Part shown: one piece after another, positions 8,288-40,764 of the stretch
Layout: the number at the start of each line of letters is the position of its first letter
Position numbering within the stretch: the first letter of the stretch is position 1
Source of the DNA: Spirosoma lacussanchae
GTDB lineage: Bacteria; Bacteroidota; Bacteroidia; Cytophagales; Spirosomataceae
Reading direction: 5' to 3'
Assembly: GCF_005870035.1 (NCBI RefSeq)
Contig: NZ_SWJG01000003.1
Coordinates: forward strand, 558,001-622,000
Length of the DNA: 64,000 bases
The notes under the pieces: model-generated
The model's input: only the letters and a program-made list of their open reading frames with translations
The model's database searches: none
What the model was told of the DNA's origin: nothing
Made by a program: the position numbers and the translations under genes

Positions 8288-8295
8288 TACCTTTA
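8288..8295 (+). promoter_or_regulatory. Candidate -7 element (TACCTTTA) for the B12 operon
   Basis: TACCTTTA differs from the Bacteroidota -7 consensus TAnnTTTG at one base. Transcription from it would begin close to base 8300, just where the cobalamin aptamer starts. Confidence 0.4.
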
Positions 8296-8302
8296 CGCTT
8301 GA

Positions 8303-8500
8303 GTTTTCGGTGCCTGATGCTGCTTCATAGCAGCTTTCACGGCTTAAAAGGGAATCCGGTTATAGACCGGAGCTGTCCCCGCAACTGTACGTTTCACTGA
8401 GAACCGGTTCAATCCACATGGTCACTGTCACTGCCGAAGCCGGGAGAAGATGGGAAGACCCGAACCGGTGAAATAAGCCAGGAGACCTGCCGAAGACCAT
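8303..8500 (+). ncRNA. Cobalamin (AdoCbl-type) riboswitch
   Basis: The conserved landmarks of the cobalamin aptamer are present in order. 'CGGTGCCTGATGC' is at 8309, 'AAAAGGGAATCCGG' at 8346, 'AGCTGTCCCCGCAACTGT' at 8371, 'GCCGAAGCCGGGAGA' at 8433, and the B12-box 'GCCAGGAGACCTGCC' at 8478. It lies directly upstream of a TonB-dependent receptor gene on the same strand. B12 binding is expected to switch off the transporter, the usual logic for BtuB-type genes. Confidence 0.95.
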
Positions 8501-8510
8501 CCGTTGTTCT

Positions 8511-38390: not shown

Positions 38391-38432
38391 CGTAAATGCC
38401 GGGATGGTGGAATTGGTAGACACGCCGGACTT

Positions 38433-39174
38433 AGTTCTTTGATATTTTTCGTTTTATTGTCGTAATTAAGAGTGAAATACTCTTAATCGCATGGCTCGTT
38501 ATGTCTTTGATTCTTCTTTCGAGAAGAGGATAATCGATGTTTGCTCTGAATCTGGAAGTATGGCTAAAGCAGCCATAGCGCTTGGTATGAATTACAAAAC
38601 ACTTTGTTTTCATGCAAAGCGTCTTAATTGTTTTAAGGCTAACCAGTCAGGAATAGGTTTGCGAAAAAGCCACCAAAGGATTCAATTCCAATGAGTGCTA
38701 TTTTTAGTGGGTCTCACTTAACCTACCAGTCTCATAAAATAAAAAAGAGACTTTTAAGAGAGGGGTATAAGAAGCATCGTTGTGAATCATGTGGTTTATC
38801 AGAATGGAAGGCAGCTCCTATTCCTTTGGAATTACATCATAGAAATGGAGTAAAAACAGATAACTCGCTGAATAATATCGAGTTGTTGTGTCCTAATTGC
38901 CATGCTCTCACCGACAATTATCGAGCGAAGAACATCAAAAAGTTGAGTGCGCGGTTGGAAACGACCGATGTAGAACCGCTTAAATTCGGGGAAACCTTAT
39001 CAGGTAATTGATTGGCAATCCCGAGCCAAGCCCGCCCGCGAAAGCTGGTGAGGAAGGTGTAGAGACTTAATAGGCGGCACCTACGTTTTGCTTCTGGCAA
39101 GATAGGGTGAAGAGAAAGTCCAGACCACAAATCGTTGCAAATGGCAACGAGCAGCGAAAGCTGTAGCTGGTACG
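38433..39174 (+). ncRNA. Group I intron (IC3-like) in tRNA-Leu(UAA) with internal homing-endonuclease frame
   Basis: A 742-base insertion in the anticodon loop. The conserved core elements appear in order. P is AATTCGGGGAAACC (38983-38996) and Q is AATCCCGAGCCAAG (39017-39030), with TTCGGG and CCCGAG able to form P4. R is GGTGTAGAGACTTAATAGGC (from 39056) and S is AAGATAGGGTGAAGAG with the following AAAGTCC (39099-39121), with GACT/AGTC forming P7. The 3' part 'AGCGAAAGCT' and the terminal G before AAAATCC follow the cyanobacterial pattern closely. P1-P3 were not resolved. A hairpin TTAAGAG/CTCTTAA (38466-38486) precedes the internal frames. Confidence 0.9.
38491..39011 (+). pseudogene. HTH-HNH homing endonuclease, split by a -1 frameshift inside the group I intron
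   Basis: Two frames overlap at ATGA. 38491-38694 encodes 67 residues with an HTH-like segment ('GSMAKAAIALGMNYKTLCFH'). 38691-39011 encodes 106 residues with an HNH nuclease (zinc Cys pairs 'CESCG' and 'CPNC', 'PLELHHRNG', 'NNIELLCPNCHALTD'). Phage and intron endonucleases of this kind are normally one chain. Moving by -1 at the A5 run 38664-38668 gives a continuous 'GLRKKPPKDSIPMSAIFSG' junction, so one A has probably been lost, or ribosomes slip there. The C-terminus overlaps the intron core element P. Base composition is much more AT-rich than the neighbourhood. Confidence 0.8.
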
Positions 39175-39221
39175 AAAATCCTGTGGGCCACAAGCCCGTG
39201 CGGGTTCGACTCCCGCTCCTG

Positions 39222-39285
39222 GTACCTCCCGAAAGGGTAAGAAACACAAAAGCCGCCGACATCAGCGGCTTTTGTGTTTATATAG
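39222..39285 (+). repeat. Direct repeat copy 1 (tRNA-Leu 3' end plus terminator)
   Basis: GTACCTCCCGAAAGGGTAAG and the following terminator to TTATATAG are repeated at 40700-40764. Copy 1 includes the last bases of tRNA-Leu. The two copies differ in the bases just before and inside the left terminator arm. Confidence 0.85.
39242..39279 (+). terminator. Terminator of tRNA-Leu
   Basis: Perfect 15-base arms AAACACAAAAGCCGC (39242-39256) and GCGGCTTTTGTGTTT (39265-39279) enclose an eight-base loop, with T-rich sequence on the right arm. Confidence 0.85.
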
Positions 39286-39306
39286 GTGTACCGACACAGG
39301 GTCGCT

Positions 39307-39314
39307 TACTTTTG
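39307..39314 (+). promoter_or_regulatory. -7 element (TACTTTTG) before the structured region of the Abi locus
   Basis: Identical to the two -7 boxes before rplC. Transcription would begin near 39320 and enter the structured non-coding region at 39365-39640. Confidence 0.5.
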
Positions 39315-39364
39315 TACCTTGCTTTATTTTGAGCTGTCGCGACTCACTATATACACGCATTATA

Positions 39365-39639
39365 TGAAGGTCAGGAGTTGGGCAAAAAAGCCTTCAGCTT
39401 TCTTAGAGAAAAACACCGATTTAAATGAATTGGCGAAGACTGTGTCAGCTTCGCCAACGCCCAACTGAAGTTTGAGGCTAATGATATTTCGTTTGGGGCT
39501 CTGTAGTACTATCCATTGAGGCCATTGAATAAAACAGATATAGTCTTTCGCCAATGGTGATATATTTGTTAAGTTTGTACCAACATGCTCACCCCGCTTC
39601 CCGTTAGAACAGCGCGCTTAGGGTGAGCTTTCTATTTTT
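39365..39639 (+). ncRNA. Candidate structured RNA upstream of the Abi/HEPN gene (putative RNA antitoxin or leader)
   Basis: No convincing protein frame lies here, but nested stems do. AGTTGGGC (39376-39383) pairs with GCCCAACT (39459-39466), enclosing TTGGCGAAG (39430-39438) with CTTCGCCAA (39449-39457). CTTTCGCCAAT at 39545 offers a second partner for ATTGGCGAAG, so a switch is possible. The region ends in hairpin GCTCACCC (39587-39594) / GGGTGAGC (39621-39628) followed by a T-rich run, five bases before the Abi start codon. A promoter, structured RNA, terminator and toxin order is the layout of type III toxin-antitoxin and AbiF-type loci. The RNA itself is inferred. Confidence 0.55.
39587..39639 (+). 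terminator. Terminator-like hairpin directly before the Abi gene
   Basis: Eight-base perfect stem GCTCACCC/GGGTGAGC with inner CGCT/AGCG, then TTTCTATTTTT. It would end most transcripts before the ATG at 39645 and keep toxin expression low. Confidence 0.6.
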
Positions 39640-39644
39640 AGGGC

Positions 39645-40541
39645 ATGAGTAAAGTCCCTTATCGCAAGTCTGCTCTCACTTATCAGGATCAACTTAATCA
39701 ACTTAAGGCAAGAGGTTTAATCGTTCAGGACGACGTTAGAGCCCTTCATTTGTTAGCTCAGGTTAGCTATTACCGACTGAGCGGCTATTGGTATCCTCTT
39801 TTGGGTGATAAGCAAATACACCAATTCAAGCCGGGGTCTACTGTTGAAACAGGTTTTCGGTTGTATTGCTTTGACCGGGAGCTACGAAAACTAATGCTGG
39901 CCGAGTTGGAAAAAATAGAAGTGGCTATACGAGCACACATGATCTATGTGCTTTCGCATCGTTTTGGTCCATTTTGGTTTACAGATACAACTTTGTTTAC
40001 AGATGCGGCCAGCCACACAAAAACCATTAGTAGTCTGAGAGCCGAATATAGTCGTAGCGATGAACAATTTATAAAAGCGTTCCGGCAAAAATATAATGAT
40101 CCGTTACCGCCAAGCTGGATGATGTTGGAAGTTGCTTCATTCGGTTCGCTATCTATGTTATACAAGAATTTGAACACAACTATAGAGAAGAGACAAATCG
40201 CAAGCTATTTTGGGCTTGACGATGGTACGTTTGGGTCTTGGCTTCATTGTATAGTTTATTTACGGAACGTATGTGCCCATCATGGTAGGCTGTGGAATCG
40301 GGTAATGAGTATCCAGCCCCGTATTCCGAAAAGCCCACGTAAGCCTTGGCTAGCTAACAAGTTGGTCATTAATAATCGGACGTATTTTGCCTTATCTATG
40401 ATTCTTTTCTTGTTGTCAACGGTTAATCCCAATCATCGTTTTTTGCAGAAACTGGCTGCTCTATTTCACAACTACCCAGAGGTGGATAAAAATGCAATGG
40501 GTTTTGAATCTGGTTGGGAGAATGAACCGCTTTGGCAGTAA
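39645..40541 (+). CDS. Abi_2 (AbiD/AbiF-type) abortive-infection protein, HEPN ribonuclease
   Basis: A 298-residue cytosolic protein. The N-terminus 'SALTYQDQLNQLKARGLIVQ' and 'HLLAQVSYYRLSGYWYPL' is the Abi_2 signature. The HEPN fold is marked by 'ELEKIEVAIRAHMIYVLSHR' and by the catalytic R-x4-H motif in 'YLRNVCAHHGRLWNR' (Arg near residue 207). Family members stop phage growth by cutting RNA in infected cells. The gene lies in an AT-rich island beside tRNA-Leu and is preceded by a terminator-like hairpin and structured sequence, which suggests RNA-based control. It has no partner protein gene. Confidence 0.92.
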   Translation: MSKVPYRKSALTYQDQLNQLKARGLIVQDDVRALHLLAQVSYYRLSGYWYPLLGDKQIHQFKPGSTVETGFRLYCFDRELRKLMLAELEKIEVAIRAHMIYVLSHRFGPFWFTDTTLFTDAASHTKTISSLRAEYSRSDEQFIKAFRQKYNDPLPPSWMMLEVASFGSLSMLYKNLNTTIEKRQIASYFGLDDGTFGSWLHCIVYLRNVCAHHGRLWNRVMSIQPRIPKSPRKPWLANKLVINNRTYFALSMILFLLSTVNPNHRFLQKLAALFHNYPEVDKNAMGFESGWENEPLWQ

Positions 40542-40699: not shown

Positions 40700-40764
40700 G
40701 TACCTCCCGAAAGGGTAAGAAATAAACAGAGCCGCTGATGTCAGCGGCTTTTGTGTTTATATAG
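40700..40764 (+). repeat. Direct repeat copy 2 with palindromic terminator
   Basis: Matches 39222-39285. Its hairpin GCCGCTGA/TCAGCGGC (40731-40748) followed by TTTTGTGTTT is better paired in its inner part than copy 1. It lies 124 bases before the glycosidase-like gene. Confidence 0.85.

Follow-up and report, generated by a model that had tools for sequence, protein, structure and literature searches.

AbiF proteins paired with a non-coding RNA (ncRNA) have already been published, and the locus described here is a variant of these systems. In PbAbiF-AbiFr (Zilberzwige-Tal et al. 2025, as reported in PMC12373285 and PMC12737573), PbAbiF was solved with its bound ncRNA (PDB 8VZ6), and its residues R210 and H215 are reported to be required for activity (PMC12373285). 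According to the same source, an RNA of C. difficile binds AbiF directly and thereby neutralises it both in cis and in trans, and the AbiF-RCd22 locus of this species carries an upstream RNA, a reported antitoxin, with two abiF motifs and a separate terminator (PMC12373285). AbiF is the reported ancestor of Cas13 (PMC12737573), and a review describes it as devoid of RNA-targeting specificity (PMC12948488). In ToxIN, likewise, an RNA is the antitoxin of a toxin protein, and phage PhiTE possesses a mimic of it, pseudo-ToxI (PMC3475682).

In the window (the whole stretch of 64,000 nucleotides of Spirosoma lacussanchae DNA that was analysed), the ORF at 39645-40541 matches Pfam Abi_2 (E 4.8e-58, 196.9 bits against a cut-off of 25.6) and PADLOC AbiD (E 9.4e-78, 259.7 bits), and it is the single Abi_2 match at E 0.001 in the 6.33 Mb host genome. 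Its nearest solved sequence is PDB 8vz6_A (E 4.4e-69, residues 2-298 covered). R207, N208 and H212 are unchanged across an alignment of 10 AbiF sequences, and R207 and H212 align with R210 and H215 of PbAbiF; the Abi_2 protein bearing R-x4-H in YLRNVCAHHGRLWNR that the original prediction had pointed out was thus confirmed. At the level of the protein, PbAbiF is a full-length homologue with the same catalytic R and H and an ncRNA partner, although it falls outside the AbiF clade of the window, on a long branch of unsure placement. By analogy with these relatives, the window's AbiF is predicted to be a toxic ribonuclease.

The order of type III toxin-antitoxin loci (RNA gene, terminator, toxin gene) is present in the sequence and in its homologues, with transcription and termination as presumed steps, and the anticipated AbiF-type HEPN protein with its own RNA upstream was in this respect borne out. 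The layout is like that of AbiF-RCd22, except that in the window one hairpin would have to serve as both RNA motif and terminator. A tandem-repeat antitoxin like ToxI was not found, the broader of our two RNA models, R2, giving one match in the window. ToxI is a repeat array, whereas most AbiF-type phage RNAs found here are single hairpins, and ToxN belongs to a protein family other than AbiF. We consider it very probable that the window holds an AbiF-type defence locus made of two parts, toxin and antitoxin, in which a hairpin RNA would restrain a HEPN toxin by binding. The basis for this in our analysis is the protein family and its residues, the RNA structure, the promoter-like box, the co-inheritance and the copies away from AbiF; transcription, abundance, termination, binding, neutralisation, toxicity and trigger are extrapolated from relatives.

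The hairpin RNA ahead of AbiF

Comparison of homologous loci indicates that the conserved RNA of the locus is the terminator-like hairpin itself, at 39582-39639 with both ends predicted (Table 1).

Table 1. Features of the AbiF locus and its flanks, in positions of the window
Feature	Position	Strand	Evidence
Left flank direct repeat: tRNA-Leu end and the hairpin after it	39222-39285	+	D1/D2, spacing 1478-1479
Leader with nested stems, outside the conserved RNA	39286-39565	+	Drift in L003, absent from L004
Promoter-like box TAnnTTTG (TAAGTTTG) of the RNA gene	39570-39577	+	Motif count in homologues
Small RNA linked to AbiF and predicted to be its antitoxin, about 58 nt including the U-tract, ends predicted	39582-39639	+	Model R1, covariation, identity in L003
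Bulged hairpin	39587-39628	+	Folding, covariation
Outer stem, 8 bp	39587-39594/39621-39628	+	
Inner stem, 4 bp	39595-39598/39611-39614	+	
U-rich tract	39629-39639	+	Sequence; also U-rich in 31 aligned homologues
AbiF/AbiD (Abi_2) HEPN protein, predicted ribonuclease toxin, 298 aa	39645-40541	+	Pfam, PADLOC, PDB
Catalytic R-x4-H motif, R207 to H212	40263-40280	+	Alignment of 10 AbiF sequences
Right flank repeat, second copy	40700-40764	+	D1/D2 repeat pair

The hairpin has a loop of 12 nt and a 3' bulge of 6 nt (CGCUUA), and the stretch 39576-39640 folds with a z of -2.55, 3 of 200 shuffles being equally stable, in agreement with the strong hairpin that had been pointed out here. Its stem stops at 39628; five bases upstream of the AbiF ATG, where the original prediction had the hairpin end, lies the end of the U-rich tract instead. 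Together, the hairpin and the U-tract probably also terminate transcription, and the hairpin first described as a terminator is the RNA that is conserved and covaries. Locus L003, whose AbiF is 91% identical to that of the window, is identical over 39584-39628 (45/45) and over the tail (16/16). In L004, with an AbiF of 73% identity located elsewhere in its genome, similarity upstream is limited to the promoter-like box and the hairpin. Model R1 gave the window RNA 86.2 bits (E 6.9e-21), the window being one of the sequences from which R1 was built.

The hairpins of class A, to which the window RNA belongs, were chosen by a regular expression that found 32, of which 31, from homologous loci, were aligned nearly gap-free and a second copy in L051 was omitted. 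Every one of the 336 cells in the 12 pairs of this alignment is a standard pair and 7 of the 12 pairs have double-sided changes; in four loci, for instance, the inner stem CGCU/AGCG is replaced by CCCU/AGGG. The covariation score was 0.329, whereas shuffles gave 0.164 and sliding the structure gave no more than 0.102; none of 500 shuffles came up to the alignment in paired cells, in double changes or in this score. Further pair types in alignment A2 were not above shuffles (9 against 9.7), and alignments A4 and A5 were fitted to the structure of the model. Loop columns 18, 19, 21, 26 and 29 are invariant, although the regular expression put no constraint on the loop, nor on the seven outermost bases of each side; the 3' bulge and some of the inner stem were prescribed by it, so that the conservation of the bulge is partly a matter of choice.

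The motif TAnnTTTG, which we take to be the Bacteroidota -7 motif, lies within 20 nt ahead of the RNA in 73 of 85 homologous RNA matches against 6 of 170 control windows, and exactly 4 nt before the RNA start in 70 of these 73. Since the box of the window also stands 4 nt before its RNA, transcription should begin near 39582. A further TAnnTTTG box is found at 39561, and TACTTTTG at 39307, already noticed in the original prediction and present as described, fits the motif too, ahead of the unconserved leader.

The Rfam abiF model RF03085 and the window RNA have in common an outer stem, a one-nt 5' bulge or extra pair, a short inner stem, a loop of 11-12 nt and a 3' bulge of 6-7 nt, whereas their loop and bulge sequences differ. 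RF03085 gave no match at E up to 10, and hence none at its gathering threshold, in 39200-39700, nor any at E up to 10 in the window's own genome (150 of 2157 candidates scored), and it missed each of the 13 class A loci on which it was run. As the window RNA has the bulged-hairpin architecture known ahead of abiF without the RF03085 score, we call it RF03085-like rather than a member. The original prediction had not recognised this RNA, which is fair in that the Rfam model gives no match, yet the layout fits the consensus of that model.

Co-inheritance with AbiF and insertion at tRNA-Leu

Scanning with ten aligned AbiF proteins returned 566 relatives, the best 80 of which were taken as named loci. 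In 73 of these best 80, RNA and AbiF share a strand and the RNA precedes the AbiF match by 0-101 nt; R2 matched at E 0.01 in 83 of 89 sources. In L028, the RNA stands on the strand opposite to AbiF, in divergent orientation and with its own TAnnTTTG box. Six of the best 80 are without an R2 RNA: L032 is truncated at the start, the RNA of L091 is an RF03085 one, L071, L086 and L087 have hairpins of like architecture that R2 does not match, and in L049 no such RNA was found, though it lies inside the class A clade of the AbiF tree. Some loci have variant or additional hairpins. L010 and L083 carry, upstream of AbiF, a variant that by eye is without the usual 3' bulge. L051 has a second near-identical RNA (498-555), some 710 bp upstream of the copy linked to AbiF and ahead of an ORF that reads like a candidate nucleotidyltransferase, and tandem pairs of AbiF-type RNAs occur in a chromosome (L005:1348-1483) and in a viral contig (L218:4826-4951).

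On the AbiF tree (89 rows, PbAbiF plus 88 loci), the rows with class A RNA make up one side of one branch with a support of 97; this takes 1 change, where shuffles need 25.4 on average and none of 500 gets as low. Classes B and C are by-eye or default assignments, with some rows intermediate, and for this reason only class A is relied on. Within Spirosoma, class A is found in the window, L004 and L014 and class B in L007 and L008, both classes thus occurring in one genus; the RNA follows the protein and not the host. The RNA class follows the AbiF clade.

Among 36 genomes of the genus, R1 matched in five, all of which have AbiF (150 candidates scored per genome). Beyond these five, the RNA of the AbiF genome G025 was found by R2, the AbiF gene of G021, which has no R1 match, is partial, and in G031 Abi_2 matches weakly (31.8 bits) and neither R1 nor R2 finds an RNA. 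In the survey of the order, a local search of 29 fetched Abi_2 loci (L101, L103, L106, L113 and L117 among them being repeats of genomes already sampled) gave R2 at E 0.001 in 24 and none at this threshold in five, two of which have weak matches. In the genome-wide search, R2 was within 3 kb of 23 of 32 Abi_2 matches above 60 bits and of none of 17 below 60 bits; this search scored 14 candidates per genome and missed some RNAs, e.g. those of G332 and G389, that the local search found. Distant Abi_2 proteins may have another RNA partner or none.

The AbiF locus sits in an insertion of some 1.48 kb with a direct repeat on either side, and in L003 the right copy also contains the tRNA 3' end. This end is single, within the stretch fetched, in 30 of 31 fetched tRNA-Leu loci of the genus; the exception is L158 (G009, whose insertion is that of L003), with two copies at a distance of 1421 nt. 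The AbiF locus was apparently inserted at the end of tRNA-Leu, without an integrase of its own. In L006 (1501-2394 and 3398-3482), from another genome of the genus, a different AbiF likewise lies about 1 kb from one tRNA of the tRNA-Gly/tRNA-Leu pair. Perhaps, this tRNA pair is a shared insertion hot spot for AbiF.

It is worth mentioning that the tRNA-Leu of the window (38398-39224), whose anticodon reads UAA in intronless relatives by eye, is split by a group I intron at about 38433-39174 (RF00028, 57 bits) with an HNH ORF at 38691-39011 inside it. The intron is present in 6 of the 31 fetched tRNA-Leu loci of the genus and absent from 25, and it is long enough for an HNH ORF in 2 of the 6 (L161 and L167). 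Elsewhere in the window, a cobalamin riboswitch was found at 8291-8508.

Copies of the RNA away from AbiF

In 390 genomes of the order, at least 33 R2 matches passed E 1e-5; an Abi_2 match lies no more than 3 kb away from 18 of them, whereas 15 have none at that distance. No Abi_2 match at E 0.001 was found in 14 of the 15 genomes with an orphan RNA, and AbiF was absent from 16 orphan stretches (the 15 and G381) by an HMM built from alignment A1. The orphan RNA is better kept than either flank in all five pairs compared, e.g. 97% against 90 and 80% in L132/L135 and 97% against 59 and 74% in L128/L134; by eye, the orphan L137 has lost the promoter-like box and one pair. In an addictive pair the toxin is expected to be lost before the antitoxin, and retention of the orphan RNA may reflect an antidote function. 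No neighbouring gene, among the neighbours listed, is common to all orphan RNAs. In L128, L134 and L137, the orphan RNA stands ahead of a helix-turn-helix/PIN pair (HTH_17 and PIN_3 by a domain search on L128 alone), in surroundings whose translations read, by similarity, like type I restriction genes. On plasmids, a search returned 4 records with one full-length match, in Persicobacter (E 1e-6).

Exact core patterns recovered 19 + 19 stretches from IMG/VR, and AbiF stands beside the RNA in L191 alone, the other 37 of the 38 having none in the stretch. Searching the whole records of 22 of these 37 for Abi_2 gave 0 matches, 13 more are complete records, and L206 and L208 were covered in part. 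The 37 stretches form 23 blastn clusters, of which some are probably related (L209 and L226 have upstream sequence in common), so that we speak of some twenty lineages. Although the patterns left the outer stem free beyond two pairs, this stem extends by at least five further pairs in 29 of 37, and by just one in L190. In 40 model-fitted viral matches, which include L191, a second match in L218 and a doubtful one in L209, 94.2% of 415 cells pair and the covariation score is 0.441 against 0.138 in shuffles (0/500), with 7 pairs carrying double changes against 5.1, a number equalled in 23 of 500 shuffles.

Twenty proteins from 17 viral contigs were compared with PHROGs (thresholds E 0.001 and 1e-6); eight had no match, three matched unknown families and nine a named function, i.e. 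endolysin (L195), terminase (L217, L210), virion/tape measure (L198), anti-repressor (L211), resolvase (L203), helicase (L214, L219) and GroEL (L212). A blastn search of named phages with three RNA queries gave one chance-level match in 50,697 records and otherwise none. A DNA region of the lactococcal phage sk1 reportedly protects another phage from AbiF, judging by the title of a study, and sk1 was searched for this reason; no abiF-type RNA was found in it by Rfam or R2.

The copies without AbiF fit phage decoys together with leftover or protective antidotes. We lean slightly towards a reading in which the AbiF hairpin is a widespread stand-alone weapon, carried by some twenty phage lineages as a decoy that would disarm the AbiF of the host and by bacteria with orphan copies as an antidote to AbiF elements that arrive from outside. 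Pseudo-ToxI of phage PhiTE offers a precedent for the decoy (PMC3475682). On the other hand, the viral RNA lies above both flanks in 6 of 8 non-identical related pairs, often barely, and the decoy is less likely for this, the RNA being not clearly better kept than its flanks. An abiF sRNA is annotated in the lytic cyanophage S-CREM1 (PMC9964418, also PMC12197685), and these sources mention three other phage genomes in Rfam (PMC9964418, PMC12197685); it is of the RF03085 type, unlike the viral RNAs found here, and the passages of PMC9964418 that deal with it give no decoy reading. A proposal of an AbiF RNA decoy was not found in the literature searched; the Cell 2025 AbiF paper, outside that scope, may contain one.

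Alternative readings and meaning

The original prediction placed the antitoxin, as a structured RNA of some 320 nt, at 39320-39640. Such an RNA would agree with the box at 39307, at the equivalent place of which L003 has TACCTTTG, and with the nested stems at 39376-39466, which can indeed be drawn, the piece 39370-39475 alone folding well (z -2.74). Nevertheless, the stretch of these stems folds differently in L003, the one relative in which the leader was found, and the leader is identical there at 224 of 280 positions (80%), a neutral-like drift at the rate of the third codon positions of AbiF (79.6%). By inspection, bases matching the alternative partner at 39545 are partly changed in the same alignment, and the leader is not common to L004. 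The whole of 39284-39650 (367 nt) folds with a z of -0.96, 17 of 100 shuffles being as good. Folding energy alone is undecided between leader and hairpin, and it is conservation that decides; homologues have in common only about the last 60 nt upstream of AbiF. The 320-nt leader was rejected as the RNA on these grounds, and an antitoxin of this extent is most improbable.

If the hairpin is the RNA, it could still act in cis only, as an attenuator or leader that limits AbiF expression with no antitoxin role in trans. Such a role suits a hairpin and U-tract that end five bases ahead of the AbiF ATG and a hairpin that stands just upstream, on the AbiF strand, in so many of the best 80 homologues, but it leaves aside the invariant unpaired loop bases, which termination does not need and the selecting pattern did not impose, the divergent RNA of L028 and the solitary copies in chromosomes and viral contigs, and we regard it as unlikely. 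A guide that sends AbiF to target RNAs, as a crRNA does for Cas13, was also implied by the "guide-like" RNA of the original prediction and would suit the reported ancestor of Cas13 (PMC12737573). Yet the 31 aligned homologues have one fixed hairpin with a conserved loop and no variable segment that could be a spacer, and AbiF is without RNA-targeting specificity according to a review (PMC12948488), which makes a guide scarcely credible.

For the two-part toxin-antitoxin locus, the mechanism that we propose, by analogy with the C. difficile RNA, is one of binding and neutralisation of AbiF by the window RNA. The promoter at 39570 would yield an abundant small RNA of about 39582-39639, a single bulged hairpin; the hairpin and the U-tract would end most transcripts, and occasional read-through would give the AbiF mRNA. 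The small RNA, bound to the AbiF HEPN dimer, would block the R207/H212 active site. Phage infection may reduce the supply of RNA and free AbiF, which would then cleave single-stranded RNA and abort the infection.

The window would thus hold a minimal AbiF system, in which one hairpin of about 46 nt seems to be both antitoxin and terminator, and its RNA class is one that the public family model RF03085 misses. The unexpected part lies outside the window, in the RNA that stands alone, above all in phages. These stand-alone copies raise a question of counter-defence, that is, whether AbiF, the reported Cas13 ancestor, is disarmed by phages that carry copies of its antidote. If this is true, the RNA mimicry known for ToxIN would extend to the reported ancestor system of Cas13.
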